A model generated the notes under the pieces. That model worked only from the letters and a program-made list of their open reading frames with translations, ran no database searches and was not told the origin of the DNA. From Candidatus Solibacter sp. (GTDB lineage Bacteria; Acidobacteriota; Terriglobia; Bryobacterales; Bryobacteraceae), in the NCBI GenBank assembly GCA_017883345.1, contig JADGNT010000010.1, forward strand, positions 1 through 17,293: DNA of 17,293 bases. Direction: 5' to 3'. The position numbers were made by a program, and so were the translations under genes. Numbering within the stretch: position 1 is the first letter of the stretch; each line of letters starts with the position of its first letter. Below are positions 1 through 16,703 of the stretch, one piece after another.

Positions 1-374
1 TACAGGCCAACAGCAAGGGCGCGCTTCAGATCGTGCAGTTCCTCAAGGGGATGCTGGAGCGCCGCATGTCGCCGAAGAATCTGTCGGGACCGATCGGCAT
101 CGGCACCATGGCGGGCGCCGCCGCCCGCGAAGGTCCGACCGAGTTCTTCCAGTTGATGTGCATGGTGAGCCTCAACCTGGCCATCTTCAACCTGCTGCCC
201 ATCCCGATTCTGGATGGCGGCGTGATCGTGATGCTGCTGGTGGAAATGACGATGCAGCGCGATCTCAGCCTCACCGTCAAGGAAGCGGTGTTTAAGGTCG
301 GCTTCGTCTGCATCATGGTGATTGTGGCTTTCGCCATTTATAACGACATCTCGAAGATTCTCCCCGCCGGTTGA
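1..374 (+). CDS. rseP: RseP-type site-2 intramembrane metalloprotease, C-terminal fragment
   Basis: This is the 3' end of a gene that begins before the window; the frame is open from base 3 and stops at 372-374. RseP is a membrane-embedded zinc protease that cuts anti-sigma factors and signal-peptide remnants. The fragment has the family's C-terminal signature: an LSGPIGIG stretch, then NLAIFNLLPIPILDGG, in which the LDG motif carries the third zinc ligand (Asp), and a final hydrophobic segment (GFVCIMVIVAFAIY). The N-terminal HExxH motif and PDZ domains would lie upstream and cannot be seen. bshC follows 73 bases later on the same strand. The family call is secure; the exact substrate is not known. 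Confidence 0.9.
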   Translation, partial: QANSKGALQIVQFLKGMLERRMSPKNLSGPIGIGTMAGAAAREGPTEFFQLMCMVSLNLAIFNLLPIPILDGGVIVMLLVEMTMQRDLSLTVKEAVFKVGFVCIMVIVAFAIYNDISKILPAG

Positions 375-447: not shown

Positions 448-2022
448 ATGCACTGTACCTGCGTCCGACAGAGCGATCTGCCCAATACTACGCGCTTGTT
501 CGCGGACGTACTGTATCATCCCGATAGAACCGCCCCTTTTTACCAGCATCCGCTGCGCGGCCTGGAAGCTTTTCAAGCCGCCGCCCGGCAGATCGAGTTT
601 TCCGGGGAGCGCCGCGCAGGGTTGATCGACGCGTTACGAGTGCAGAATCCCGAGAGTCCGGCGCTCCAACGCCTGGCGCAACCCGGCACGGTCGCGGTGG
701 TGACCGGCCAACAGGTGGGATTGTTTTCGGGCCCCTGCTACACCATTTACAAAGTGCTGCACGCGGTGAAGCTGGCCGCAGAGCTTTCCGCCAACGGATT
801 GCCCGCGGTTCCGGTCTTCTGGCTGGCCACGGAGGATCACGATTTCGCCGAGGTTAACCACGCCTGGGTCTTCGGCGCGGACCATCAGCCAAGGAAAATG
901 GAGATGCGCCGCGCCTCGGTCGAGCAACCCGCCGGCGAGGTAGCTCTATCGGCGCCGCCGGTGCGCGAACTGCGCGCCGCGCTGCATGGGCTGCCATTCG
1001 GCGAAGAAGTCGCCGACATGGTAGAAGAAACCTACCGCGCCGGCAACACCATGGGCAAGGCGTTCAGCGAACTGCTGCGCCGCCTGCTGGCGCAATTCGA
1101 CATCCTGTACGTGGACCCGATGCTGCCGGCCTTCCGCGCTCTCGCCGCTCCCGCGCTGCGCTCCGCCGTGGCAGCCGCGGAGGAGCTCACCACCGGCGTC
1201 CTGGCGCGCAACCGCGAACTGGCCGAGGCCGGATATCATGCCCAAGTCCATGTGGAAGAGCACACCTCGTTCGTCTTCCTGCTGGAAAATGGCAAGCGCC
1301 TCGCCCTGCGCCGCAGCGGCAACGAATACGTCCACAATAGCCGCCGCTTCACCAGCCAGGAGTTGATGGACCGCGCCGCCTCACTTTCGCCCAACGCCAT
1401 CCTCCGCCCGGTGATTCAGGATTCGATGCTGCCCACGGTGAGCTACATCGGCGGTCCAGCCGAGACCGCGTATCTGGCGCAATCCGAGGCCCTCTATCGC
1501 GTCCTGCTGGGGCGTATGCCGGTCGCCATGCCACGCGCGAGCTTTACTATCCTGGATAGCCGAAGCGCCAAGTTGATGGAGCGCAACCATCTTTCGCTCG
1601 GCGATTTCTTCCACGGCGAAATCTCGCTCAAGGAACGCATCGCCTCACGTCTCGTGCCGCCCGCACTGGCCGGCAGCATGCGCGAATCCGCGGCGACCGT
1701 AGGGAGCGCCGTGGCGCGCATGCGCGCCGAGTTAACGGCATTCGACCCGACACTCGCCCAAGCGCTCGACCGCAGCGCCAGAAAGATCGACTACCAGCTC
1801 GCCAAAATGGAACGCAAGACCGGCCGCGAAGCCATGCGCCGCGATGAATACGCCGAGCGCGATGCCGCCTCGCTCTACGGACTGATCTACCCGGAGCGGC
1901 ACCTACAGGAGCGCCTCTACTCCATGCTCCCCTTCCTGGCCCAACACGGCCTGGATCTGATCGGCTCCATCTACGAAGCCATCGAACTGGAGTGTTCCGA
2001 CCATCGCGTGATGGTGATGTGA
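448..2022 (+). CDS. bshC: Putative cysteine ligase BshC (bacillithiol biosynthesis)
   Basis: The 524-residue protein matches the usual length (about 540) of BshC, thought to add cysteine to glucosaminyl-malate in the last step of bacillithiol synthesis, in the cytoplasm. The sequence shows the two family blocks: VAVVTGQQVGLFSGPCYTIYK (about residues 82-102) and FWLATEDHDFAEVNHAW (about 126-142). The C-terminal part (about 400-480) is rich in charged helix, as expected for the BshC coiled coil. The ATG at 448 gives a normal N-terminus (LP..TRLFADVLYHPDRTAPFYQH). No Shine-Dalgarno sequence precedes it; a weak -10-like TAAGCT lies at 433-438. No other bsh gene is in the window. A family A palindromic repeat starts right after the stop. 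Confidence 0.92.
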   Translation: MHCTCVRQSDLPNTTRLFADVLYHPDRTAPFYQHPLRGLEAFQAAARQIEFSGERRAGLIDALRVQNPESPALQRLAQPGTVAVVTGQQVGLFSGPCYTIYKVLHAVKLAAELSANGLPAVPVFWLATEDHDFAEVNHAWVFGADHQPRKMEMRRASVEQPAGEVALSAPPVRELRAALHGLPFGEEVADMVEETYRAGNTMGKAFSELLRRLLAQFDILYVDPMLPAFRALAAPALRSAVAAAEELTTGVLARNRELAEAGYHAQVHVEEHTSFVFLLENGKRLALRRSGNEYVHNSRRFTSQELMDRAASLSPNAILRPVIQDSMLPTVSYIGGPAETAYLAQSEALYRVLLGRMPVAMPRASFTILDSRSAKLMERNHLSLGDFFHGEISLKERIASRLVPPALAGSMRESAATVGSAVARMRAELTAFDPTLAQALDRSARKIDYQLAKMERKTGREAMRRDEYAERDAASLYGLIYPERHLQERLYSMLPFLAQHGLDLIGSIYEAIELECSDHRVMVM

Positions 2023-2158: not shown

Positions 2159-2950
2159 ATGCCTAAAATCGAAAGCTACGCGCCCGGATCATTCTGCTGG
2201 GCGGACCTTGCGACCACCGATGCGGCGGCCGCGAAACACTTTTACGGGGAAATGTTCGGCTGGACCGCGGTCGATATCCCGATGCCGGAAGGCGCTTACA
2301 CGATCTTTCAATCCGGCGGCAACGATGCGGCAGCCATGTACCCCGCTGGCCCGGGCATGCCGGCCCACTGGGGGGTCTATTTCTCGGTGGCCGCCGCCGA
2401 CGAATCGGCGGCGCAGGTCGAGCCGTGCGGCGGAAAGCTCATAGCCGGACCGTTTGACGCCATGGACGCGGGCCGTATGGCGGTGGCCCAGGATCCGCAA
2501 GGCGCGGTGTTTTCGTTGTGGCAGGCCAAGCGGCACATCGGCGCCACGCACGGCGGACCGCTGGGGCAAGTGGTGTGGCCGGAACTGGCGACCGGCGATC
2601 CGGCGGGCGCGGCCGGGTTCTATACCCGTCTGTTCGGCTGGAAGACGAAACCCGAAACCGTTGGCGCGGACGCGCCCTATGCCGAGTGGTTGAACCAGGG
2701 AGCGAGTATCGGCGGCCTGATGCCCATGCAGGGCGATCAGTGGCAGGGTATCCCGCCGCACTGGATGATCTATATCACGGTGGCCGATTGCACGGACCGC
2801 GCCGCTCGCGCCGGTCAACTCGGCGGCAAAATCTGCGTGCCTCCCAGGGACATCCCGAATGTGGGACGCTTCTCGGTGATCTTCGATCCCCAGGGCGCCG
2901 CGTTCTCCATCATTCAGATGACCGCCGTGCATCATCCGGCTACAGCCTGA
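2159..2950 (+). CDS. VOC superfamily protein with two glyoxalase-like domains (CFP30B type)
   Basis: The 263-residue protein contains two copies of the vicinal-oxygen-chelate fold. The first (about residues 8-122) begins GSFCWADLATTDAAAAKHFYGEMFGW; the second (about 135-258) begins GQVVWPELATGDPAGAAGFYTRLFGW. Each ends in a strand of the form DPQGA.FS(L/I), typical of this family. Such fused pairs resemble mycobacterial CFP30B and bacterial 'glyoxalase/bleomycin resistance' annotations; members bind small molecules and few have a known reaction. No signal peptide is seen, so it should be cytoplasmic. It stands alone between two repeats, with a possible promoter at 2128-2133. The substrate cannot be told from sequence. 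Confidence 0.88.
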   Translation: MPKIESYAPGSFCWADLATTDAAAAKHFYGEMFGWTAVDIPMPEGAYTIFQSGGNDAAAMYPAGPGMPAHWGVYFSVAAADESAAQVEPCGGKLIAGPFDAMDAGRMAVAQDPQGAVFSLWQAKRHIGATHGGPLGQVVWPELATGDPAGAAGFYTRLFGWKTKPETVGADAPYAEWLNQGASIGGLMPMQGDQWQGIPPHWMIYITVADCTDRAARAGQLGGKICVPPRDIPNVGRFSVIFDPQGAAFSIIQMTAVHHPATA

Positions 2951-2992
2951 TGGCGCGGCCCGCTGGCTCAGAACGTCAGAAGAAAACAATTA

Positions 2993-3068
2993 GCCGCCGA
3001 TGAACGCCGATAAACGCGGATAAACAAGAATTTTTGCTTATCCGCGTTCATCTGCGTTCATCGGCGGC
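2993..3068. repeat. Long palindromic repeat of the GATGAACGC/GATAAACGC type
   Basis: Inverted repeat with arms of about 34 bases, left 2993-3026 and right 3035-3068, about 31 of 34 positions pairing, and a short loop. The arms are built from the 9-10-base unit (C)GATGAACGC / (C)GATAAACGC. Repeats of this look are common between genes in several GC-rich phyla (from memory, not searched). Here it separates the VOC gene from the convergent rod-binding gene and overlaps the 3' end of the latter, so it may also end transcription from both sides. Confidence 0.85.
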
Positions 3069-3350
3069 CAGTTTTGGCTTGAGGCCTTTGGCGATCATAT
3101 CGGCCAATCCCAGGCCGCCTTTTTGCGCCAGGACGGCGGCGAATTGCTGCTCGGCATAATCGGTGGCACATTCGGCGGAGGAGTCCTCGCCGCCGAGCCA
3201 CCCCGAGCCGCTCTGCCGCGCGGACCGCAGAATCTGTCCGATTAAGAGGGCTTCGAATTGCTGCGCGGCGTCGCGCACTTTTTCTGGAGTGTCCGCTTTG
3301 GCGGTGGTGGTGGCGGGCAAGGCGACGGAAGAAATTGCCAGATCGCTCAT
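3048..3350 (-). CDS. flgJ: Flagellar rod-binding protein (FlgJ N-terminal-like)
   Basis: The 100-residue protein matches the rod-binding domain of FlgJ without the muramidase domain, the form found in many bacteria. Residues about 25-50 (VRDAAQQFEALLIGQILRSAR) carry the conserved AxxFEAxxxxxMLxxxR-like helix, and the tail (FAAVLAQKGGLGLADMI) matches the second conserved helix. It would act in the periplasm as a cap or scaffold for rod assembly. The ATG overlaps the flgI stop (ATGA at 3347-3350), so it is the downstream gene of a flgI-flgJ operon. The last codons (AADERR) and stop lie inside the palindromic repeat at 2993-3068, so the C-terminus may have been replaced by repeat sequence. Confidence 0.85.
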   Translation of the reverse strand: MSDLAISSVALPATTTAKADTPEKVRDAAQQFEALLIGQILRSARQSGSGWLGGEDSSAECATDYAEQQFAAVLAQKGGLGLADMIAKGLKPKLAADERR

Positions 3351-3634
3351 CCGATCACCTCGATTTCCGCTTCGAGAGCGCCGGCGGTGCGCAAGTTTTG
3401 CAGGATCGCAATCACCTCGCGCGGGGTGGATCCGATGGAGGCGAGCGCGCGCACCAGCTCCTCGACGGTTGCGCCCTGCTTCAACACGAGGTTGCGGGCC
3501 TTTTCTTCCTTCGCCGCGACAGTGGTCTGCGGAACCACTTCGGTAGTACCCGCGGCCATGGGGTTGGGTTGCGAGACGTGCAGCACGGTCTGGATCTCGA
3601 CGGTGAGATTGCCATGCAGGGCGGCTACCGGCAT
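3347..3634 (-). pseudogene. flgI: flgI, 3' fragment only (flagellar P-ring protein)
   Basis: The last 95 codons of a flagellar P-ring protein. FlgI forms the peptidoglycan-level bushing around the rod and is normally about 350-370 residues. The visible part carries HGNLTVEIQTVLHVSQPNP, then KQGATVEELVRALASIGSTPREVIAILQNLRTAGALEAEIEVI, which is the diagnostic FlgI C-terminus. Upstream of about 3634 the similarity stops at once: the opposite strand there encodes flhA. The open frame continues to an ATG at 4054, but that stretch is only the antisense of flhA. The 5' end of flgI, with its signal peptide, is absent from the window. Either a deletion or a misassembly made this junction. The rod-binding gene follows with an ATGA overlap. 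Confidence 0.85.
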
Positions 3635-4285
3635 ACTGGCTACACCGTGGTGGACAGCGTGAGCGTGCTCGGCACTCACCTTTCCGAGCCGATTCGCCGC
3701 TACGCCCACGAACTGTTTTCGCGGCAGGATGCCAAGCGCCTGCTGGACCGGGTGGCTGTGGAGCACCCCAAGGTCGTCGAGGATGTGGTTCCCAAGCTGC
3801 TGCCCCTCTACACCGTGCAGCGCGTGCTGCAGAACCTGTTGCGCGAGCGCGCGTCGATTGGCGACGCGGTCTCGATTCTGGAGGCGCTCGGCGAGGCTGG
3901 CGGTTGCCCCCGCAATCCCGTGCTGCCGACCGAGTATGTGCGGCAGTCCATCCGTCGCGCCGTGGTCAAGCCGTATCTGATCCGGGCGGGCGACCTGCCT
4001 GCCTGGTTCATCGATCCGCCGATCGAGCAGGCGGTGGAATCGGCCGTCGAACACGGCGAACAGAACAGTCGCATTTCACTTCCGCCGCAACAAATTCGCG
4101 ACATCCTCAATCGCATTTCGGCACGCATCCAACAGCCAGAGACACCGGTTGTGGCGATCACCTCCAGCGGCGCGCGCTATTTCCCGCGTCAACTCGGTGA
4201 GCCCACCCTGCCCAACCTCTTTTTCCTGGCGCACAACGAAATCCCGCCCGGTCTGCGCGTGCAATCGCTGGGCAATCTTCAATAG
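3635..4285 (+). pseudogene. flhA: flhA, 3' fragment only (flagellar type III export gate)
   Basis: The last 216 codons of FlhA, the large export-gate protein of the flagellar type III secretion system (normally about 690 residues, N-terminal membrane half plus cytoplasmic half). The fragment begins at TGYTVVDSVSVLGTHLSEPIRRYAHELFSRQD and continues through LLPLYTVQRVLQNLLRERASIGDAVSILEALGEA and NPVLPTEYVRQSIRRAVVKPYL, all typical of the cytoplasmic nonamer-forming domain. All membrane helices and the FHIPEP motif region are missing. The open frame runs back to 3335, but that part is the antisense of flgI. flhF starts 73 bases downstream. As it stands it cannot make a working export gate. Confidence 0.87.
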
Positions 4286-4358
4286 CCGCCTACAGAAAAT
4301 CCGCATTTCCGCCGATAGATTCCACGTGTAGCGGCCTGCTAAGCGGCCGGAGAACGAG

Positions 4359-5523
4359 ATGAAGATCAAATCCTACTATTCCCGCACCGTGGAGGACGCG
4401 ATGGCCGCCGCGCGTCATGAGATGGGGCCGGACGCGATGCTGGTGAACAGCCGCAAAGCGCCGCCGGAGGCTCGCCATCCCGGCGAGTACGAAGTTGTCT
4501 TTGCCGACGTCGCTGCCGCCGGAGGCCTCCCTGAAACTTCCGGGCGAGCGCAGCGAGTCGATGGCAGTTCCTCCGTCGCCCGTGACCGACCGGCTCTCCA
4601 TGGAGGTCGCGGAACTCAAGAAGGAGTTGGCAGGGATGCGGCACGCGATCACCCGCACGGCCTACGCGCCGGCACAGTGGATCGGCGTCTCGCAGGACCT
4701 ATCCGATGCCTATGCCGCGCTCACCGCCGCGGAGGTATCGGCGGAGTTGGCCCGCGAGATTGTGCAGGCCGCGGGGGACCGCTTGAACGGCCACCGCCTT
4801 CCGCCTGGGCCGGCCACGAAGAGGACGGACGGTTCTGCCTTCCAGCGGCCACTCATCGAGGAAACCTCCAGCCGCTTCACCGCCGATGCGACGCTGGGCC
4901 GCAGCCCCGCACAACCGCGCATCGTCGCTCTGGTGGGGCCTCCCGGTTCAGGCAAGACGACTACCCTGGTCAAACTTGCAGTCAACTACGGTCTGGCCGC
5001 TCGCCGGCCCGTTCTGCCGCTCTCCATCGATACGCACCGCGTCGCCGCCGCCGATCGGCTACGCTCCTACGCCGCGATCCTCGGCATCGGTTTTCAGTTG
5101 CTGGAGACGGTATCGTCACTGGCTCAGGCGATCGAGGAAAACCGCGGGAAGGAACTGATCTTCATCGATACCCCGGGGTTGGCCTACGGCGACCTCGAAG
5201 ATTCGGAAAGTCTGGCGCACTTTCTTGCCACGCGCGGCGATATCGACACGCACCTCGTGCTCCCGGCACCCATGAAGGCGGCCGGCCTTTCACGCATGGT
5301 GGATGCTTTCGAAATCTTACGGCCGCGGCATCTTCGGTTCACGAAACTTGATGAAACCGGGTCCTACGGGCCGATCTTCAGTGAAGCGGCGCGGACCGGC
5401 AAGCCGTTGTACTTCTTCGCCGCGGGCCGGCGCATTCCCGAGGATCTCGAAGCCGCCAGCCCCGAGCGCGTGCTGGATCTAGTGTTGCCAAGCGCCGGCG
5501 GCAGGACGCGATCGGCCGCATAG
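4359..5523 (+). pseudogene. flhF: flhF with a single-base frameshift (SRP-like GTPase for flagellar placement)
   Basis: FlhF is a GTPase of the SRP family that sets flagellar site and number. The first frame (from ATG 4359, GGAGA at 4349-4353) encodes the FlhF N-terminus MKIKSYYSRTVEDAMAAARHEMGPDAMLVNSRKAP to about GEYEVVFADV. From about 4520 the coding frame is the next one, ending at 5523: linker with coiled coil (MEVAELKKELAGMRHAI), Walker A GPPGSGKTTT (near codon 192), SIDTHRVAAADRLRSYA, IFIDTPG and TKLDETGSYG (G4). The span is 1165 bases, 388 codons plus one extra base, so one inserted base near 4500-4590 explains it. The downstream frame alone, from a TTG at 4495, would lack the B domain. 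fliA follows 28 bases later. A sequencing error is possible. Confidence 0.85.
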
Positions 5524-5551
5524 AAAGGTAGCAGGTGATGGGTGGAATCGT

Positions 5552-6307
5552 ATGTATGGCTACACGGTGTCTGGTGAGATGACCGACGAGAGGCGCGAGC
5601 GTCTCATTCTGGAACACCTGCCCCAGGTACGGCTGATCGCCCGGCGGATTCAGGAGCGTCTGCCGGATAGCATCAGCCTCGACGACCTGGTTTCTACCGG
5701 TGTACTCGGGCTGATCTCGGCGATCGACCATTTCGACCCCGGCCACAACGTCAAGTTGAAAACCTACGCCGAGTACAAGATCCGTGGTGCCATTCTGGAC
5801 GGCCTGCGCGGCTTGGACTGGGCGCCGCGCCAGAAGCGCCGTAAGTCGAAACAAATCGAAGCGGCCATCGCCATCGCGGAGCAGCGCTTGCAGGGCCCGC
5901 CCTCGGAGGAGGATATCGCCGCTGAACTCGCCATCACGCTGGACAAGTATCACGAGTGGCTGGTGGAGATCCGCGGCCTCAATCTGGCCAGCCTTGAGTA
6001 TGCCGGCAGCGATCAGGGCAAGGACCTGCTGCACTATCTGCCCGACACCGGCGAAAATCTTCCTTCCACGCTGCTGGAACGGGCGGAACTGGAGAAATTG
6101 CTGGCGTCGAGCATCGAGCTGATTCCAGAAATCGAGAAAACCGTGCTCAGTCTCTACTACCACGAGGAATTGACGCTACGCGAGATTGCCCAGGTGGTAA
6201 ACCTGCACGAGTCGCGCATCTCGCAGTTGAAGTCGCAGGCCATCGTGCGGCTGCGCGGCCAGTTGGCCGAACAATGGCCGTCCACGCGGGGGATGGCCGG
6301 GGCATGA
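5552..6307 (+). CDS. fliA: Flagellar sigma factor FliA (sigma-28)
   Basis: The 251-residue protein is a full-length group 3 sigma factor of the FliA/WhiG type, which directs RNA polymerase to late flagellar and chemotaxis promoters. Region 2 is clear: LDDLVSTGVLGLISAIDHFDP, then LKTYAEYKIRGAILDGLRGLDWAPR (about residues 46-98). Region 3 includes PSEEDIAAELAI, and region 4 is the helix-turn-helix LTLREIAQVVNLHESRISQLKSQAIVRLR (about 208-236). The ATG at 5552 follows GGGTGGA (5540-5546) at good spacing; an internal ATG at 5579 (MTDERRERL) is also possible. The stop overlaps the next start (ATGA at 6304-6307). No FlgM-like anti-sigma gene is visible in the window. Confidence 0.93.
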   Translation: MYGYTVSGEMTDERRERLILEHLPQVRLIARRIQERLPDSISLDDLVSTGVLGLISAIDHFDPGHNVKLKTYAEYKIRGAILDGLRGLDWAPRQKRRKSKQIEAAIAIAEQRLQGPPSEEDIAAELAITLDKYHEWLVEIRGLNLASLEYAGSDQGKDLLHYLPDTGENLPSTLLERAELEKLLASSIELIPEIEKTVLSLYYHEELTLREIAQVVNLHESRISQLKSQAIVRLRGQLAEQWPSTRGMAGA

Positions 6308-7161
6308 CCGCCAGCGGAGCCCACGACCAGGTGACGGAGCAGATCGGCGGCCTGCTCGATCACTGGACGGTGGGCCTGGCCGAAGTGGTGGCGTCCATGG
6401 CCGGCCAGAAGCGCGAGGTGAGCTGGGAGGCCACTGCCATGCCGCCGGCCGGGCCGGACCTGTTGTGGTGGGAGCAGCCTTTCCAGACCGTCCCGGGCGC
6501 GGTGGTCTGGGTAGCGACGCCGCGCAGCACCTGGGAGCATGCCGGCACGCTGAGGCTGAAAGCCGCCGGCCTCGAAACCGTCGAAACCAACGAGGCTCGC
6601 AACACCTGGTTGGAGATTCTAGGCCAATCGCTCTTTGCTCTGGCCCGTTCGATTGGCGGCGTGCCGGGTCGCGAAGTAGCGTGCGACACCGGGGCGGAGC
6701 GCGCACCCGAGGCGAACCCGGAAGCCGCGGCGTCGGTTTTGCTAACCTTTGGCGAAACGCCTCAAGCTCCGCTTTGGATCGGCTTCAGTCCCAAGTTGGT
6801 GGCCCTCCTCTCGCATCCGGCAGGCGGCGAGAGCATCGAAGCGCAGACCGGCCATGCGGATGCCGAGGACGGCGCGGTCCACGCCGGCCGCGGCGATATC
6901 CCGCCAACCATGGACCTGCTGCTGGATGTCGAATTGCCAGTGAGTGTTTCATTCGGTAAGACGGAGATCCCAATGAAAGATGTCTTGAAGCTGACCACAG
7001 GCAGCATTGTGGAACTGAACCGGGGTGTCAACGAACCGGTGGAGGTGTGGGTGAATCACTGCCTCATCGCGCGTGGCGAAGCGGTCGTGGTGGAGGGTAA
7101 CTACGGCGTACGTATTCAGCAGATCGTCAGCCGGACGGATCGGCTGCGGAGCGTACGATGA
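6304..7161 (+). CDS. fliN: FliN/FliY-like flagellar motor switch protein with long N-terminal extension
   Basis: The 285-residue protein ends in a SpoA (C-ring) domain at about residues 203-280: DLLLDVELPVSVSFGKTEIPMKDVLKLTTGSIVELNR, then PVEVWVNHCLIARGEAVVVEGNYGVRI. This is the FliN signature; the domain lies at the base of the motor and takes part in torque switching. FliN alone is usually 90-140 residues. The extra 200 N-terminal residues, with NTWLEILGQSLFALARSIGG (about 98-118), vaguely recall the CheC/CheX-like part of FliY, but no phosphatase motif can be confirmed. The ATG at 6304 overlaps the fliA stop and is preferred to 6274, which lies inside fliA. The next gene overlaps by ATGA at 7158-7161. 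Confidence 0.85.
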   Translation: MTASGAHDQVTEQIGGLLDHWTVGLAEVVASMAGQKREVSWEATAMPPAGPDLLWWEQPFQTVPGAVVWVATPRSTWEHAGTLRLKAAGLETVETNEARNTWLEILGQSLFALARSIGGVPGREVACDTGAERAPEANPEAAASVLLTFGETPQAPLWIGFSPKLVALLSHPAGGESIEAQTGHADAEDGAVHAGRGDIPPTMDLLLDVELPVSVSFGKTEIPMKDVLKLTTGSIVELNRGVNEPVEVWVNHCLIARGEAVVVEGNYGVRIQQIVSRTDRLRSVR

Positions 7162-7553
7162 ACCTGCTGCTTCTGCCCCATAGCATCCTGTGTGGACTGG
7201 TACTCTGCGATACCGCGGCCAGCCTGGTCGCGGTCTATCGCGCCCAGTGCCTGCTGCGCGAGATGGACGGACGGGCCGGCGATCGGCAATCGCAGCGGGA
7301 TGGCGAACTTCAGGCGCGCCGCGACACTCTGGAAGCGCTGGCCGCTCAGCTCCACGATCCGCGGAATCACACGCCGGTTGCGCCGCCGCCCGGACTCCCC
7401 AAGCCCGGACTGAACCTCAGCAAACGCTCCCACGCGCTGCGCATGCACCGGCGCGGCGAGGGCGCCGAACAGATTGCCTCCGCCTTGGAACTGCCGCGCC
7501 AGGAGGTGGATCTTCTCTTGAAGGTACATCGCAGCGTACTCAGCAGCGTGTAG
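7158..7553 (+). CDS. Small membrane-anchored hypothetical protein, DUF2802-like C-terminus
   Basis: 131 residues, last gene of the flagellar operon, translationally coupled to fliN (ATGA overlap). The first 25 residues (MNLLLLPHSILCGLVLCDTAASLVAV) are hydrophobic and probably form a membrane anchor. A charged helical stretch follows (about 28-70), then a Pro-rich linker (VAPPPGLPKPG). The C-terminal 45 residues (KRSHALRMHRRGEGAEQIASALELPRQEVDLLLKVHR) look like a helix-turn-helix and recall DUF2802, found next to flagellar genes in gammaproteobacteria. That match is from memory and weak. The role is unknown; position suggests a flagellar link. Confidence 0.7.
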   Translation: MNLLLLPHSILCGLVLCDTAASLVAVYRAQCLLREMDGRAGDRQSQRDGELQARRDTLEALAAQLHDPRNHTPVAPPPGLPKPGLNLSKRSHALRMHRRGEGAEQIASALELPRQEVDLLLKVHRSVLSSV

Positions 7554-7564
7554 CCGCCGTCGCT

Positions 7565-7624
7565 GGGGACTGACAAGACTGACATGAATTTCCGGCGCAC
7601 TTGGCCGGAAATTCGCTGTCTGTT
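7565..7624. repeat. Family A palindromic repeat, copy 2 (inverted)
   Basis: Core stem GAATTTCCGGC (7585-7595) and GCCGGAAATTC (7603-7613) with a 7-base loop. The flanks GGGGACTGACAAG and CGCTGTCTGT show that it lies in the opposite orientation to the copies at 2023-2116 and 9910-9978. It starts 11 bases after the last flagellar stop codon and could end that operon's transcript. Confidence 0.85.
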
Positions 7625-7686
7625 GGGATGGGCCTTCGGCCCGCGAAACTTCATGAAAAACTGAGCGGGCACGCTGACGGGCAGAT

Positions 7687-7796
7687 GTGGCACACGCACT
7701 CTTGCGTGCCGCGTCGGCACTTTTGCCGACGCCCGCTGCCCAGGGCGCAGAGCGTCGAGTGAGACTCGACGCGGCACGCAGGAGTGCGTGCGCCAC
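7687..7796. repeat. Compound inverted repeat between convergent genes
   Basis: The outer arms, 7687-7716 and 7767-7796, pair at 28 of 30 positions (GTGGCACACGCACTC... against ...GAGTGCGTGCGCCAC). Inside are two further hairpins: GTCGGCA/TGCCGAC (7713-7719/7724-7730) and GCGTCGAGT/ACTCGACGC (7752-7760/7764-7772, loop GAG). The unit lies between the convergent flagellar operon and the heparinase gene. It could fold as a branched RNA or cruciform and may act as a two-way terminator, but it has no U-tract of note. Confidence 0.8.
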
Positions 7797-7849
7797 GAAG
7801 ATGGTTTTTCGTCCCCGGTTTGCCAACCTCCGTGGTTTGCGGGGTTTCA

Positions 7850-9784
7850 CTACTTGCCGTTGAACCCACTGGCGGAAAGCCGGATCAGGGGGTCGGATCG
7901 AGACCACGGGGTGCGGCCCACGAGGATCGCGTCCCCCTCGGTCCGAATCTCCAGCGGGCCGCTGGCGGGGGACTCCGAAAGATCCAGCACCGCTGCGATG
8001 TGCGCCGGCAGCGGACCTCGTACTGTGATGCAAAGCGCCGTGGCGGGTTCCCTGCTGCACAAGGCCCGCGACCGCCAGGCGTCCACCACCTCGACTGGGG
8101 CACTGAAGCTGAAGCGCGCGGCATCTTCCGCCGAGTCCAGATGCCAGAACTGTTCCAGCGTGTGATCGCCGGATGGGCCGTCAACGGTATCCAACACGAT
8201 GACCGTGGCGGGCTTGACAAAGAGAATACGGCGGCGATGGGTGAAGCCGGCGTAAGCGCAGGTTGCGTCCAGGTAATCCCGTTCCGGCCGCGTGGTCCAC
8301 TGGCGGACGGTGACAGAGGGCTTGTGGTTCCAACGGAAGGGACCGCCGGGAACGGCCTGGTCCCGGCCATCGATGCGCACGGTGTTGTGCGCGGCCGATC
8401 CCCGGAACCGGTTGCGTTCGGCGGGGTCGGCCATATAGGTAAACGTACCGGGGTCGATCAGAATCTCGCGACTGCCGGCGCGCGCGGTCAGGCTGAGCAC
8501 GTCGGAGTGGCTATGGCCGCCGGAGCCAACGCCAAAGGGCCCGGCTTTGACGACCAGGTGAACATCGTCCGCGGCCATGACCGCGACGCCGCTATCGGAG
8601 AAGAACCGCGAGACGCGCGGCGCGGGTGGCGCGGTGGGGGCGGACAACACCTCCGTTCCCAACCACCATGCAGCCTGCTCGTAGAGATCGCCTGACCCGC
8701 GGAGCCATTCGGGGCGGTTAAGCACCACGGAGCAAGTGGCCATCGTCGCGCGGCCAAACCCGGCACGCTCGCCATAGGGGTGGAACAGGCGGCCTCCATC
8801 ATCGTCCCCGATGAGGGGTAGGTAGCCAGAGACGCCGAGCAGAGCATCGAGGTACTCGGCCATCGAAACCAGGCGGGCGTCGTACGTAGCGTCGTATGTA
8901 CGGGCCGGTTTCGCCAGCAACCGGTACAGCAAAAAAAAATCGAGGGCGTAGACGTGATAGTAGGCGGACTGCTCGAAGTGGCTGCCATCGCCGCGGACTT
9001 GCCGCTCCATCTGCTGCTCCACGATGCGGCCGCCGATCTCGGCCCAGCGCGCCGCATGCGGAAATGCGGGGAACAACACGCCGAGCGCGTGTAGCGCCAC
9101 CGCCTCGCCCAGAAGGTGCGTGTTGGGTGAGAAGTACACCGAGAGGTTCAACTCCAGAAAACGGCCATGACGACCGAGCGCGGTCAGAAAGCGCTGGCGC
9201 AGCGCTTCGGGCATTTCGCTGCCGGCCATGTGCCAGAGCCAGGTCCAGGAGAGAGCGCGGAAGGCCACCTCCAGCGCGCTCCCCCAGTTGATTCCGCGTA
9301 GGAATGGGTTGGCATCCAGCCAGCTCTCGACCTGGCGGAAGGCTTCGTCGAGGTGTTCGCGGCGGCCGGTCAGGAGAAACGCCTGTGCCAGGAGAATGAG
9401 GTGCTGGTGGCGGTTCAGCTCCCAGATCACTTTGTGATCGCCGGCTCGCGAGAAGTCCAGATAGGGCGAGCGCCGAAAGTACGGCGTGCCGGTGGACACC
9501 TGATGCAGGTAGTCGCGCCGCCAGTCGATCGCGGGTCCGGTCGCGACCGTCACTCCAAGGATGGGGAAACGGTGGCGCAGGATCTGGCCGGCGATGCGCT
9601 CGACTTCGGCGGCGTATGCCGTTTCGCGGAGGGCGGCGGCGACCACCGCGGCGTCCGGCAGCAACCCAGGCTGTAAACCAGACCGCGCGTGGCGTGCCCC
9701 CGCTGCTCCAGGCGGAAACAGGAACATCGCCAGGTTGCCCAGTTCCTGGCGCAGGCGAAAGTAGATTTCTCCCGGACTACGCAC
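7850..9784 (-). CDS. Heparinase II/III-family protein (polysaccharide lyase-like)
   Basis: 644 residues from the GTG at 9784. The helical N-terminal domain shows NPFLRGINWGSALEVAFRALSWTWLWH, SPNTHLLGEAVALHALG and DGSHFEQSAYYHVYALDFFLLYRLL, all conserved in the family. The beta-sheet domain shows GSGGHSHSDVLSLTARAGSREILIDPGTFTY followed by RFRGSAAHNTVRIDG. Members cleave uronic-acid polysaccharides or act in exopolysaccharide clusters; the substrate here is unknown. The frame is open back to an ATG at 10018, but that extension translates the palindrome at 9860-10019 and is not protein-like. The GTG gives the family N-terminus (RSPGEIYFRLRQELGNL); no clear Shine-Dalgarno precedes it. No signal peptide is seen from this start. 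A run of nine A (8931-8939) lies within the gene. Confidence 0.88.
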   Translation of the reverse strand: MRSPGEIYFRLRQELGNLAMFLFPPGAAGARHARSGLQPGLLPDAAVVAAALRETAYAAEVERIAGQILRHRFPILGVTVATGPAIDWRRDYLHQVSTGTPYFRRSPYLDFSRAGDHKVIWELNRHQHLILLAQAFLLTGRREHLDEAFRQVESWLDANPFLRGINWGSALEVAFRALSWTWLWHMAGSEMPEALRQRFLTALGRHGRFLELNLSVYFSPNTHLLGEAVALHALGVLFPAFPHAARWAEIGGRIVEQQMERQVRGDGSHFEQSAYYHVYALDFFLLYRLLAKPARTYDATYDARLVSMAEYLDALLGVSGYLPLIGDDDGGRLFHPYGERAGFGRATMATCSVVLNRPEWLRGSGDLYEQAAWWLGTEVLSAPTAPPAPRVSRFFSDSGVAVMAADDVHLVVKAGPFGVGSGGHSHSDVLSLTARAGSREILIDPGTFTYMADPAERNRFRGSAAHNTVRIDGRDQAVPGGPFRWNHKPSVTVRQWTTRPERDYLDATCAYAGFTHRRRILFVKPATVIVLDTVDGPSGDHTLEQFWHLDSAEDAARFSFSAPVEVVDAWRSRALCSREPATALCITVRGPLPAHIAAVLDLSESPASGPLEIRTEGDAILVGRTPWSRSDPLIRLSASGFNGK

Positions 9785-9859
9785 GGCGGTGCACGAGACC
9801 CGGACCAGAGGCTTCAGACATTGCTTCCTCAATCGTACACCGCACCGCCAGAGCCCCGA

Positions 9860-10019
9860 GGTGTTTGACCGTTTTGGGGACACGACGAACGGCGAGCTTA
9901 TCCCGCGGGGCAAACCCTGGGACAGACAGCGAATTTCCGGCAAACTGCGCCGGAAATTCATGTCAGTCCCGGGTTTGCAGCGCATTCCTGGCCGGCCTTC
10001 CCCAAAACGGTTAAACACC
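9860..10019. repeat. Large inverted repeat enclosing a family A copy
   Basis: Outer arms 9860-9880 (GGTGTTTGACCGTTTTGGGGA) and 9999-10019 pair at 20 of 21 positions. Between them sits a full family A palindrome (9910-9978). The 333-base stretch 9785-10117 has no supported gene; it holds this structure, the heparinase upstream region and the cupin leader. The layout suggests one palindrome inserted into the loop of another. Confidence 0.8.
9910..9978. repeat. Family A palindromic repeat, copy 3
   Basis: Same orientation as copy 1. The core GAATTTCCGGC (9931-9941) pairs with GCCGGAAATTC (9949-9959), loop AAACTGC. Outer GCAAACCC (9910-9917) pairs with GGGTTTGC (9971-9978). It lies upstream of the heparinase gene and inside a larger inverted repeat. 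Confidence 0.85.
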
Positions 10020-10117
10020 CCGCAGCCCGGGCCACATCCGCCCGGATTTCGCGTATTCTAGTATGGCGATGGCTCGCCCCGGTTCCAACAGGGACAATCG
10101 CACGGAGACAACAAAAC

Positions 10118-12077: not shown

Positions 12078-13688
12078 ATGTCGTCAAGTTTACTGCTGGC
12101 TTTGCTGGTAAACCGTTCTCCTACCGAACGGCTGATTCAGAATATCCTCAACAACCCGTTCGCTGGAATTCATCAGTTGGCGTGGTTCGACTGGGCGATG
12201 CTCGTGCCCTACTTCACCGTTCTGATCATCCTCTCGGTCTACGGTTTGCACCGCTACGACATCATCCGCACTTATTTCAAGCACAAGAAAAAGAAGACCA
12301 TCGCCCCCGCGAAGCACTTCGACCAACTGCCTCGCGTCACCATCCAACTGCCTATCTATAACGAGCGCTACGTGGTGGAACGCCTGATCGAAGAGACCGT
12401 CAAGATGGACTATCCCAGGGAGTTGCTCCAGATCCAGGTGCTGGACGATTCCACCGACGACACCGCGCCCTTTGCCGGCGCTCTCGTCGAACGCTATCGC
12501 ACCCTCGGGCACCCCATCGAGTATCACCACCGCACGAATCGCCACGGGTTCAAGGCCGGCGCGCTCCAGGAAGGGCTGAAGACCGCCACCGGTGAAATGG
12601 TGGCCGTCTTCGACGCCGATTTCATCCCCCCCACGGACTTCCTCACGCGCACCATCCACTACTTCACCGATCCCACCGTCGGCGTGGTGCAGACGCGCTG
12701 GAGCTACCTCAACCGCGATTACAACTTCCTCACCGAGGTCGAAGGCATGCTGCTCGACGGCCACTTCATCCTCGAGCACGGCGCCCGCTCCTGCGCCGGA
12801 TATTTCTTCAACTTCAATGGCACGGCCGGCATTCTGCGCGTCTCCATGATCGCCGACGCCGGCGGCTGGCAGCACGATACCCTGACCGAGGATTCCGACC
12901 TCAGCTATCGCGCGCAGCTCAAAGGCTGGCGCTTCATGTACGTCCCCGGCCTGGATTGCCCCTCGGAACTGCCCGTCGAAATGCACGGCTTCCAGGTGCA
13001 GCAATCGCGTTGGGCCAAGGGTTTGACCCAGGTCGCCATGAAGCTGCTGCCCGCCATCCTGAAAGCGCCCATCTCGCGCCGCATCAAGATGGAAGCCTTC
13101 ATGCACCTGACGCCCAACATCACCTACCCGCTGATGATCGTGGTCTCGGCGCTGATGCTGCCGGTGATGATCGTGCGCTTCTACATGGGCGTCTGGCAGA
13201 TGATGTTTCTGGATCTGCCGCTGATTGCGGCGTCCTTCTGGTCGATTTCGTTGTTCTATGTGGTGGCGCAGCGCGAGCTCTACCCCAAGAATTGGAAGCG
13301 CTCGATTTTCATGCTGCCCATGCTGATGGCCGTCGGGGTGGGTCTCACCATCATCAATACCCGCGCCGTGTTGGAAGCCCTGTTCGGCGTCGAGACCAGC
13401 TTTGTGCGCACCCCGAAATTCGCCATCGGCGAGCGCCCCATGAAGCTGGAGAACAAACAGTACCGCGCCCGCAGCGGCTGGCTGCCTTACCTGGAACTGG
13501 CCGTCGGGACCTATTTCCTGGGCATGGTGATCTTCGCCTTCACCACGTTCAACTTCCTGACCATCCCGTTCCTGGCGCTGTTCGTTTTCGGCTACTACTG
13601 GGCCGGCTTCACTACTCTCTACCAGGAGCACCAGAGCCGCCTGCGTTGGATGAGAGCGCGCAACCTGGAACTGGCGCGGCAGGCATAG
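12078..13688 (+). CDS. Membrane-bound GT2 beta-glycosyltransferase (CslA/cellulose synthase-like)
   Basis: 536 residues. One membrane helix at about 38-58 (WAMLVPYFTVLIILSVYGL) precedes a GT2 catalytic domain: LPRVTIQLPIYNERYVVERLI (about 87-107), VLDDSTDDT (UDP binding), FDADF (near 178, the DxD metal site), GTAGILR, TEDSDLSYR (near 270, catalytic base region) and QQSRWAKG (near 308, the QxxRW motif). At least four further helices follow (about 345-520). This layout matches processive synthases such as plant CslA mannan synthases and bacterial relatives. It should use a nucleotide sugar in the cytoplasm to extend a polysaccharide or glycolipid; the sugar is unknown. No PilZ domain or BcsB partner is seen nearby. 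The ATG at 12078 has no clear Shine-Dalgarno. Confidence 0.9.
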   Translation: MSSSLLLALLVNRSPTERLIQNILNNPFAGIHQLAWFDWAMLVPYFTVLIILSVYGLHRYDIIRTYFKHKKKKTIAPAKHFDQLPRVTIQLPIYNERYVVERLIEETVKMDYPRELLQIQVLDDSTDDTAPFAGALVERYRTLGHPIEYHHRTNRHGFKAGALQEGLKTATGEMVAVFDADFIPPTDFLTRTIHYFTDPTVGVVQTRWSYLNRDYNFLTEVEGMLLDGHFILEHGARSCAGYFFNFNGTAGILRVSMIADAGGWQHDTLTEDSDLSYRAQLKGWRFMYVPGLDCPSELPVEMHGFQVQQSRWAKGLTQVAMKLLPAILKAPISRRIKMEAFMHLTPNITYPLMIVVSALMLPVMIVRFYMGVWQMMFLDLPLIAASFWSISLFYVVAQRELYPKNWKRSIFMLPMLMAVGVGLTIINTRAVLEALFGVETSFVRTPKFAIGERPMKLENKQYRARSGWLPYLELAVGTYFLGMVIFAFTTFNFLTIPFLALFVFGYYWAGFTTLYQEHQSRLRWMRARNLELARQA

Positions 13689-13700
13689 GCGGCCGGACGA

Positions 13701-13745
13701 ATGCCCCCACGAATGGGGGCATGGCAGCCTGCAAGGCTACGCTAC
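13701..13745. repeat. Family B two-hairpin repeat, copy 2
   Basis: Hairpin 1 is ATGCCCCC (13701-13708), loop ACGAAT, GGGGGCAT (13715-13722). Hairpin 2 is AGCCT (13726-13730), loop GCA, AGGCT (13734-13738). It ends in ACGCTACG. It lies between the convergent glycosyltransferase and ATPase genes and contains the ATPase stop codon, so it may be a two-way terminator. Confidence 0.8.
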
Positions 13746-14437
13746 GTCCGGTCCGCGATGCGGCCGTCGCGCATGTGGACCGTGGAATCGCCGTAGGCCG
13801 CAGCCTCCGGATTGTGGGTGATCATCAGGATGGTCTGCCCCAGCCGCCGGTTCAAATCGCGCAGAACCTCCAGCACGGCTTTCGAGTTTTCGGTATCCAG
13901 ATTCCCTGTGGGCTCATCGGCCAATAGAATCGCCGGGTGATTCACAATCGCCCGCGCAATCGCCACGCGCTGCTGCTCGCCGCCGGAGAGCGCATTCGGT
14001 TTGTGATCCAGCCGTTCCCCAATACCGAGCAGGCGCAGTACTTCCTCGAACTCGGGTTCCGGCTTGGCGTCCGTGCCCCCGATGTAGCGCGCCACCGCGA
14101 TGTTGTCCCGCGCGGTCAGGTTGGGCAGCAGGTTGAACTTCTGGAACACGAATCCCACGGTGCGCTTGCGCATGCGCGTGCGCGCCGCGTCGGTCATCGC
14201 CGACAAGTCCTTGCCGTCTACCACGACTTTTCCCGTGGTTGGCGGCGTCAGCCCGCCGATGATGTGAAACAGCGTCGACTTCCCCGAGCCGGACGGGCCG
14301 ATGATCGAAAGGAAGTGGCCCTTCTCGACGTCGAGATCCACGCCGCGCAGGGCCGGCACGTTCACCTTGCCCACGCGATAGGTCTTGCACAAATCACGGA
14401 TCTGGATGATGTCGCCGTTGCTCACGCCGCTACTCAT
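13742..14437 (-). CDS. LolD/MacB-type ABC transporter ATPase
   Basis: 231 residues from the ATG at 14437. The ATPase motifs are complete: Walker A GPSGSGKST (residues 47-55), Q-loop FVFQKFNLLP (96-105), signature LSGGEQQR (150-157), Walker B ILLADEPTGNLD (170-181) and H-loop MITHN. The 'PTGNLD' D-loop is typical of the LolD/MacB/FtsE group. The start at 14437 overlaps the permease stop by eight bases; an in-frame ATG at 14461 lies further inside the permease and is less likely. It powers the permease encoded just upstream. The last codons and the TAG (13742-13744) lie in a family B repeat. Whether it extracts lipoproteins or exports another substrate cannot be told. Confidence 0.93.
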   Translation of the reverse strand: MSSGVSNGDIIQIRDLCKTYRVGKVNVPALRGVDLDVEKGHFLSIIGPSGSGKSTLFHIIGGLTPPTTGKVVVDGKDLSAMTDAARTRMRKRTVGFVFQKFNLLPNLTARDNIAVARYIGGTDAKPEPEFEEVLRLLGIGERLDHKPNALSGGEQQRVAIARAIVNHPAILLADEPTGNLDTENSKAVLEVLRDLNRRLGQTILMITHNPEAAAYGDSTVHMRDGRIADRT

Positions 14438-15533
14438 ATGACAGCGCCTCGATCGGGTCATGCGCCGCGGCCGTCAGCCCGGGATACAGCGCGCCCAGCA
14501 GAGCCCCCAGCACCGTGATCGCCCCCGCGATGGGCCACCAATCGTAGGCGATAGTCATGGGCAGGGAGGCCGGCTTCAGCGCGTGGATCAACGCCGCCGC
14601 TGCGTAGCTCATCAGGATTCCCAGAATCGTACCGCCCAACCCCAGGAAAAACGCCTCGCTCAGAATAATGCCCAGGATGAACCCCTTCGACGCACCCAGG
14701 CTCTTGAGAATTCCGATCTCGCGGGTGCGCTGCAAGACCGCCATGTACATCGACAGGCACACCACCGCGAACCCGATGACCACGCCGATTCCCATCACCA
14801 CCGCAATGAATCCGGCCAGCGCCGGAATGTTGTTCACATTGAGCAGCGACGTGAAATCCTCCATGGAAATGATCGGATAGCCCTCCAGTGCCGGAATTCC
14901 GGTGAGGTATTTGACGGTCGCGGCCGTGTTCGCGGGATCGTCGAGGCGGAGATAAATCTGGTTGACCTTTCCGGCGTTCTCGAGCCTTTCCTGCAAAGTC
15001 TTGAGCGGCACCACGATGTGGGTGAGTTTGCCGCCCTCCATGATGCCGCTGACGTGCCACTTGGCATTGAGCAAATTGATCGTGTCCCCGAGCTTGGCTT
15101 TGGTCTGGTCGGCGTAATAATCGTCCAGAATCACGTCGTCGGGCCGCTGGAATGCTCCGCCTGAGTGGAACTGGAAGCCACCACACATCTGCGTGAATTC
15201 CTCGTAGTTGATGCCAGTGGCGAAGAGCGTGACGCCTTCGACCACGACGCTATACACTCCGGTGGCCATTTTCACGTGCGGTTGCTTGGCCATGTATCCG
15301 ACCAATTGCTCGGGAATCGGCGCGCCATTCAGGCTAAGAAACGACGAGGATTTCGGCCGCATCAGGATATCCGCCCCGCTGCCGCGCTGGCGTTTCTGTG
15401 AATCCTCTATAAATCCGTGGCTGAGGCCCACCAGGCAGAGGATCAGAGTCACCGGTACGCCGATCAGCAGGATACTGAGCAGGCTGCGCATCGGCCGGTG
15501 TTTAAGATTTTCTAAGACGAGCTTTCCGGTCAC
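14430..15533 (-). CDS. MacB/FtsX-type ABC transporter permease
   Basis: 367 residues from a GTG at 15533 that overlaps the upstream stop (GTGA), showing tight coupling. The layout is that of the MacB/LolE superfamily: one membrane helix near the N-terminus (SLLSILLIGVPVTLILCLVGL, about 17-37), a periplasmic domain of about 200 residues, then the FtsX domain with three helices near 265-365 and the motif RTREIGILKSLGASKGFILGIILSEA. The end TAAAHDPIEALSYE is also typical. An open frame reaches back to 15767 but only antisense-like residues lie there. Only one permease gene is present, so it probably works as a homodimer, unlike the LolC/LolE pair. Confidence 0.9.
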   Translation of the reverse strand: MTGKLVLENLKHRPMRSLLSILLIGVPVTLILCLVGLSHGFIEDSQKRQRGSGADILMRPKSSSFLSLNGAPIPEQLVGYMAKQPHVKMATGVYSVVVEGVTLFATGINYEEFTQMCGGFQFHSGGAFQRPDDVILDDYYADQTKAKLGDTINLLNAKWHVSGIMEGGKLTHIVVPLKTLQERLENAGKVNQIYLRLDDPANTAATVKYLTGIPALEGYPIISMEDFTSLLNVNNIPALAGFIAVVMGIGVVIGFAVVCLSMYMAVLQRTREIGILKSLGASKGFILGIILSEAFFLGLGGTILGILMSYAAAALIHALKPASLPMTIAYDWWPIAGAITVLGALLGALYPGLTAAAHDPIEALSYE

Positions 15534-16627: not shown

Positions 16628-16703
16628 GGGCCTGTGGCGCAGTTGGGAGCGCGCTTCCATGGCATGGAAGAGGTCGACGGTTCGAACCCGTCCAGGTCCA
16701 CCA
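16628..16703 (+). tRNA. tRNA-Ala (anticodon GGC)
   Basis: 76 bases including an encoded CCA. Acceptor stem GGGCCTG pairs with CAGGTCC (one G-T pair). The D arm has GCGC-AGTTGGGA-GCGC. The anticodon stem CTTCC/GGAAG holds loop ATGGCAT with anticodon GGC, which reads GCC/GCT alanine codons. The T arm is GACGG-TTCGAAC-CCGTC. The discriminator is A, as required for alanine. The usual G-U identity pair at position 3-70 of tRNA-Ala is present as the third pair of the acceptor stem. Confidence 0.96.

Follow-up and report, generated by a model that had tools for sequence, protein, structure and literature searches.

A Solibacter-like acidobacterium has very probably undergone a real deletion of flagellar genes, followed by decay of those left behind, rather than owing its truncated flagellar cluster to a chimeric assembly. 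The stretch of DNA analysed, hereafter the window, is the whole of a 17,293-base contig (C10) of genome G000, a metagenome-assembled genome (MAG) of 5,447,107 bases in 890 contigs that is 79.28% complete and 3.34% contaminated; at 79% completeness and in 890 contigs, any single gene absence from it could be a gap. In the proposed course of events, one deletion of about 13 kb would have taken the 5′ two thirds of the divergent genes flgI and flhA, together with the 13 intervening genes for hook, rod, ring and export functions, through illegitimate recombination at 4–5 shared bases. The leftover pieces would since have been decaying, with flhF out of frame and the remnants collecting amino-acid changes. 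The loss would be fairly recent and would concern one species of a flagellated acidobacterial genus, a species that may be non-motile.

The window and its genes

The features of the window, with Pfam families and E-values in brackets, are as follows.

3..374, plus strand: M50-type peptidase gene, 3′ end (PF02163, E 1.3e-24); left flank and selection control
448..2022, plus strand: bshC (PF10079, E 1.6e-73); open frame; left flanking gene and selection control
2159..2950, plus strand: glyoxalase/VOC protein gene (PF00903, E 6.6e-19), between bshC and flgJ
3048..3350, minus strand: flgJ-like rod-binding protein (Rod-binding, PF10135, E 8.8e-6); open frame; left edge of the cluster
3347..3632, minus strand: flgI remnant, last ~94 codons; 5′ two thirds missing
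3628..3632: probable deletion junction with a microhomology of 4–5 bases, both homologies covering these bases
3628..4285, plus strand: flhA remnant, last ~217 codons; 5′ two thirds missing
4359..4521, plus strand: flhF 5′ piece (about 54 codons) preceding the frame break, from alignment with nine relatives
4522..5523, plus strand: remaining flhF in another frame, SRP54-type GTPase domain (PF00448, E 2.4e-24)
5552..6307, plus strand: fliA-like sigma factor (Sigma70 regions 2, 3 and 4); open frame
6274..7161, plus strand: FliM/FliN-type C-ring protein (PF01052, E 8e-22); open frame
7158..7553, plus strand: small DUF2802-like orf (PF10975, E 1.1e-7; 32.4 bits, just missing the cut-off of 33.5); open frame

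The left flank of the window recurs in relatives: the M50-type peptidase gene adjoins bshC in G001, G002 and G003, where bshC in turn adjoins the flagellar block, and the VOC gene adjoins flgJ in G002 and G003, the corresponding contig of G006 ending inside the VOC gene. The flgJ-like protein is 76–78% identical to its homologues in G001–G004, and the small DUF2802-like orf holds a conserved place, after fliM/N in the relatives' cluster. No Pfam family was found on the flhF 5′ piece (4359..4521) taken alone.

Several further features of the window and its surroundings were observed. A tRNA-Ala gene (anticodon ggc) lies at 16628–16703 on the plus strand, close to the right end of the contig. 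An inverted repeat at 2988–3073, comprising two 43-base arms that are 86% complementary with no spacer, overlaps the 3′ end of flgJ, and a repeat of 47–61 bases occurs in three copies (2051–2116, 7560–7623 and 9920–9968) at 90–96% identity and in both orientations. A dispersed repeat of ~190 bases with an internal inverted repeat is found at window 7616–7809, at positions 1–200 of contig C291 of G000 and at 4197–4386 of locus L208. In G001, just the C-terminal third of the VOC gene is matched between bshC and flgJ (C327 4539–4739, L067), a fragment from which the cluster-adjacent region of that genome appears to be likewise eroded.

The junction of flgI and flhA

Each of the two truncated genes gives the only match of its family in G000: FlgI (PF02119) at window 3356–3646 on the minus strand (profile positions 247–343 of 343), and FHIPEP/FlhA (PF00771) at 3629–4252 on the plus strand (444–655 of 657). 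The protein translated from 3347–3631 on the minus strand matches PF02119 with an E-value of 5.6e-26 (profile 252–343), and that from 3632–4282 matches PF00771 with 9.6e-46 (446–655). The flgI and flhA pieces are 85% and 92% identical in protein to those of the same-genus G001, the latter being 92% identical to G006 too, and these E-values and identities to G001 exclude a chance match. To map the junction, bases on either side were compared without gaps against nine relatives: flgI identity stops at 3631 or, as in G001 and G006, at 3632, and that of flhA sets in at 3628 (G001) or 3629 (G006). The two homologies thus overlap by 4–5 bases, as judged from relatives standing in for the true parent sequence, with nothing between them or inserted at the join. 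A sequence-only reading of this DNA had placed the two ends at 3634 and 3635, leaving 95 and 216 residues of coding parts that abut without a space; the Pfam matches and base comparison bear out these coordinates and lengths to within a few bases, and the abutment likewise.

No pair among the repeats listed for the window links the two breakpoints, and a dispersed repeat was rejected as the cause of the deletion. Three of the listed pairs have an arm into or near 3583–3623, among them a 27-base direct pair (78%) with 2709–2735 and a 26-base inverted pair (81%) with 14323–14348, both of which look like chance coding matches.

Short-read contig misjoins normally need a repeat as long as a k-mer. 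This bears on the rival reading of the junction as an assembly or binning chimera, in which two pieces, from a single organism or from two, were wrongly joined and the genuine flgI and flhA are still whole, having gone unassembled or unbinned. The fragmented state of the MAG, at 79% completeness, and the ending of several of its contigs near flagellar loci speak for such a misjoin; against it, the join shares 4–5 bases only, judged from relatives, and holds no k-mer-long repeat. The left and right pieces also place alike phylogenetically, as G000, G001 and G006 split from the other seven genomes in the trees of both, with support of 86 for the left piece and 100 for the right pieces, the branching within this group of three being poorly resolved.

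Gene order in relatives

FlgI is present in all 12 of G001–G012, and 36 of 61 genomes searched have a FlhA match, including G000 and all eight same-genus relatives. Among the 28 further genomes in the family of G000, 5 have no FlhA match; flagellum absence is therefore not rare there. In the relatives' cluster, one strand carries flgJ, flgI, flgH, flgA, flgG and flgF, and the opposite strand carries fliK-like, flgD, flgE, fliN-like, fliO, fliP, fliQ, fliR, flhB, flhA, flhF, fliA, fliM/N-like and the small orf. This divergent order of flgI and flhA is found on single contigs of G009, G010 and G012 and in a second system of G003, a few weak genes being unmatched in these single-contig clusters (e.g. 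fliO and fliK in G012). In the G003 second system, FlgH, FlgA, proteins of the FlgG/FlgF/FlgE type, FlgD, FliO, FliP, FliQ, FliR and FlhB score over their Pfam cut-offs and FliK falls below its own; the fliN-like piece is identified by short tblastn matches only. The block of G001 is spread over four contigs, whose ends overlap exactly by 141, 67 and 141 bases, and adjoins the same left flank as the window, and that of G006 lies on two contigs with the break inside flgG.

The distance between the breakpoints of the window comes to about 13.4 kb in G001 and to 12.3 kb in both G009 and G010; in G006 it is at least 13.2 kb. Thirteen genes lie between them in the undeleted G001: flgH, flgA, flgG, flgF, fliK-like, flgD, flgE, fliN-like, fliO, fliP, fliQ, fliR and flhB. 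The divergent ancestral order supposed in the sequence-only reading is thereby confirmed, from the single contigs and from the four contigs of G001, and given this order its proposal of one deletion over both 5′ parts explains the window, the single event itself being what we infer. Its guess that flgA, flgG, flgH or flhB might be among the losses was right in that all of these are missing, but too short, with 13 genes and about 13 kb gone.

Rearrangements of other kinds were observed within the genus. An inversion of ~10 kb is common to two species, G002 (C233/C24; L062, L079) and G003 (C109; L078), in which the VOC-to-flgE block lies reversed, with bshC on one side and the fliN-like gene on the other, such that flgE adjoins bshC and the VOC gene adjoins the fliN-like piece. 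The flgI of G006 (C36 1714–2586, L072) lacks ~66 internal codons in frame when compared with FlgI of the G003 second system, which may reflect either a real gap or an assembly collapse. In G002, an extra flgI, its match interrupted by two TGA stops, and a flhA-like gene that is divergent and split (C163, L060; C423, L059) look like decayed flagellar-type genes.

Flagellar genes elsewhere in the assembly

An 11.6-kb query from G006, running from the flhA tail into flgG, gave a single match in G000, to the flhA tail (661 bases, 92%), from the 33 of 131 first-look candidates in this genome that were scored; each of the other seven genomes searched besides the source gave 4–14 matches. Neither the 5′ halves of flgI and flhA nor the middle genes were found elsewhere in the 79% complete assembly by profile and DNA searches. 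The sequence-only reading had regarded such 5′ halves in the rest of the assembly as the mark of a misassembly; none was found, so the deletion is not refuted, and their absence counts further against a chimera. Flagellar families from other loci also went undetected. The rod/hook C-terminal domain Flg_bbr_C (PF06429) has no match in G000 versus 5–9 in each of eight relatives; flagellin N, FliD and the MotB plug have none versus presence in all eight same-genus genomes; and FliF has none versus matches in seven of these eight, G001 also being without a FliF match though other parts of the operon are there.

The flgB–fliJ operon of G006 occupies positions 3596–10086 of a second query, its genes being assigned by Pfam (FliI, FliH, FliE, FlgC, FlgB and FliF, with FliG checked in G003), save for fliJ, which carries no Pfam family and was assigned by position only. 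G000 matches this query at 1–2987 and 12864–14545, so that both flanks are present, and has no match to the operon itself among the 40 of 186 first-look candidates scored; all four relatives searched match at least part of it. Contigs C127 and C291 of G000 stop about 0.6 and 2.8 kb short of the operon's place in G006; as neither contig reaches it, the absence of flgB–fliJ rests on contig ends. The other end of C291, towards motA, lies in the dispersed repeat.

Both flanks are likewise present for the mot-fliD-flagellin-fliW region of G006, which G000 matches at 1–1291 and 16756–19001 of the query. Among the matches listed, none in G000 falls in the interior except the dispersed repeat at about 4061–4456 (40 of 301 first-look candidates were scored, the weakest matches lying outside the listing). 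This repeat, also present in G006, takes most of the 60 G000 matches to the query. In contig C254 of G000, homology ends at 12,466–12,469, about 30 bases before the G006 fliW ORF, and an AAA ATPase gene follows; judged from this sequence, C254 appears to be a second assembled place with a flagellar gene missing from its usual neighbour. A candidate motAB excision junction in C291 was rejected, as the contig end in question (1–200) is the dispersed repeat, which is also at window 7616–7809 and in G006.

The missing loci with their flanks present would also be accounted for by a mixed population, a possibility compatible with a real deletion, in which some strains carry the deletion and others keep the cluster, poorly assembled or binned elsewhere. 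The bin yielded no alternative contig, and the state of the genes that remain in the assembled copy, described below, bears on the same point.

Probable decay of the remaining genes

The flhF of G000 carries a private 11-base gap after position 4521 that breaks the frame. The gap is found in none of nine relatives, in all of which flhF is one open frame of 386–391 codons. Selection on the remaining pieces was compared through private substitutions, where a single genome departs from a state shared by all the others compared, counted in codon alignments with up to five relatives (G001, G002, G003, G004 and G006; four in the case of flgJ, fliM/N and the DUF2802-like orf). The sets of relatives vary by gene, and per-gene counts are small (flhA remnant 4:3, flgJ 1:3).

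Taken together, flgJ, the two remnants at the junction and the 3′ part of flhF show 13:9 private nonsynonymous to synonymous changes in G000 versus 29:146 in the relatives (Fisher p 4e-5, in a test that takes changes as independent and relatives as one pool). With any other genome as the focus, none of the comparisons for these four pieces is significant. Across all seven flagellar pieces the counts are 24:17 for G000 and 78:274 for the relatives, of which up to five were compared (Fisher p 5e-6), with p ranging from 9e-7 to 3e-4 when each gene is left out in turn. As a control, the M50 peptidase end and bshC give 7:27 in G000 versus 40:128 in three relatives (p 0.83). The VOC gene shows no difference either (16:14 versus 26:26 in two relatives) and was kept out of the control sum, few relatives having the whole gene; a heparinase-like gene was dropped from the counts because of a frame error. 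Pairwise dN/dS, a blunter measure, shows no clear rise for G000, the signal residing in the private-substitution count alone. The remaining flagellar pieces of G000 are under relaxed selection, unlike the two flanking control genes. Set against a neutral expectation of about 2.3–2.8 to 1, the ratio of 1.4 to 1 in the remnants would, as a rough estimate, fit a loss of constraint for roughly half of the G000 branch.

A counter-point to decay is that fliA, fliM/N and the DUF2802-like orf retain open frames. These three may have been kept for another role in a functional reduction of the cluster, the tails of flgI and flhA being bystanders, and the identity of the fliA-like protein to its homologues, 92% to G001 and 94% to G006, would suit such retention. 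However, the three genes look relaxed too, at 11:8 in G000 versus 49:128 in relatives (p 0.016; fliA alone 2:2), and we regard their retention for another role as most improbable. That the assembled copy shows both a broken frame and relaxed selection suggests that decay has occupied an appreciable share of the branch, and a mixed population is considered unlikely. Neither the independent break in flhF nor the relaxation of the pieces is expected from a misjoin, and a chimera is judged very unlikely.

A real deletion followed by decay remains the preferred explanation. The sequence-only reading had left a non-motile descendant and an assembly chimera side by side; the former is now favoured by the flhF frame break, the relaxed selection and the other flagellar families that went undetected, and the latter has lost ground. 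From its genes, G000 appears to be a bacterium heading to, or past, the loss of swimming.

Comparison with known systems

The gene lfhA is a homologue of flhA. Escherichia coli K-12 and B, according to PMC3032704, keep just two terminal remnants of the Flag-2 system, fhiA (lfhA) and mbhA (lafU). The likeness to G000 lies in a lost flagellar cluster of which two terminal pseudogene remnants are left; Flag-2, however, is a second system beside Flag-1, whereas no second flgI or flhA was found in the G000 assembly. Passages of PMC3826837 likewise describe a large contiguous flagellar deletion in Xanthomonas fuscans 4834-R, which belongs to a group that includes flagellated members; 34 contiguous genes are missing, and an insertion sequence stands in their place. 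The G000 deletion differs from the event in those passages in comprising 13 genes and two 5′ parts, with 4–5 shared bases and no insert. Lysobacter enzymogenes, as the abstract of PMC9927559 reports, is non-flagellated and still has part of the flagellar gene set; it is a cultured organism studied at the bench, in contrast to G000, which is one uncultured MAG known from its genes alone. Flagellar loss and pseudogenes are also described for Actinobacteria in PMC10746217. Among the matches listed from open-licence literature, no paper on flagellar loss in Acidobacteriota was found by title, and PMC11095265 yielded no passage on Acidobacteri, pseudogene or loss.

The type of event is already known, and G000 adds an acidobacterial case. 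It is a tentative suggestion, and rather less than probable, that the genus forms a live series of flagellum breakdown, with one species without its main flagellar loci and in mid-decay, and relatives showing a partial inversion of the cluster, an internal flgI gap and a decayed-looking second locus; if this were true, a comparison of living species could reveal in what sequence the steps of flagellum loss took place. What G000 offers is a base-resolution view of an apparently recent flagellar gene loss in soil Acidobacteriota, in which the remnants can still be recognised and sister species preserve the undeleted order. Though the event itself is of a familiar kind, this would provide a natural point of reference for the meaning of non-motility among soil bacteria.
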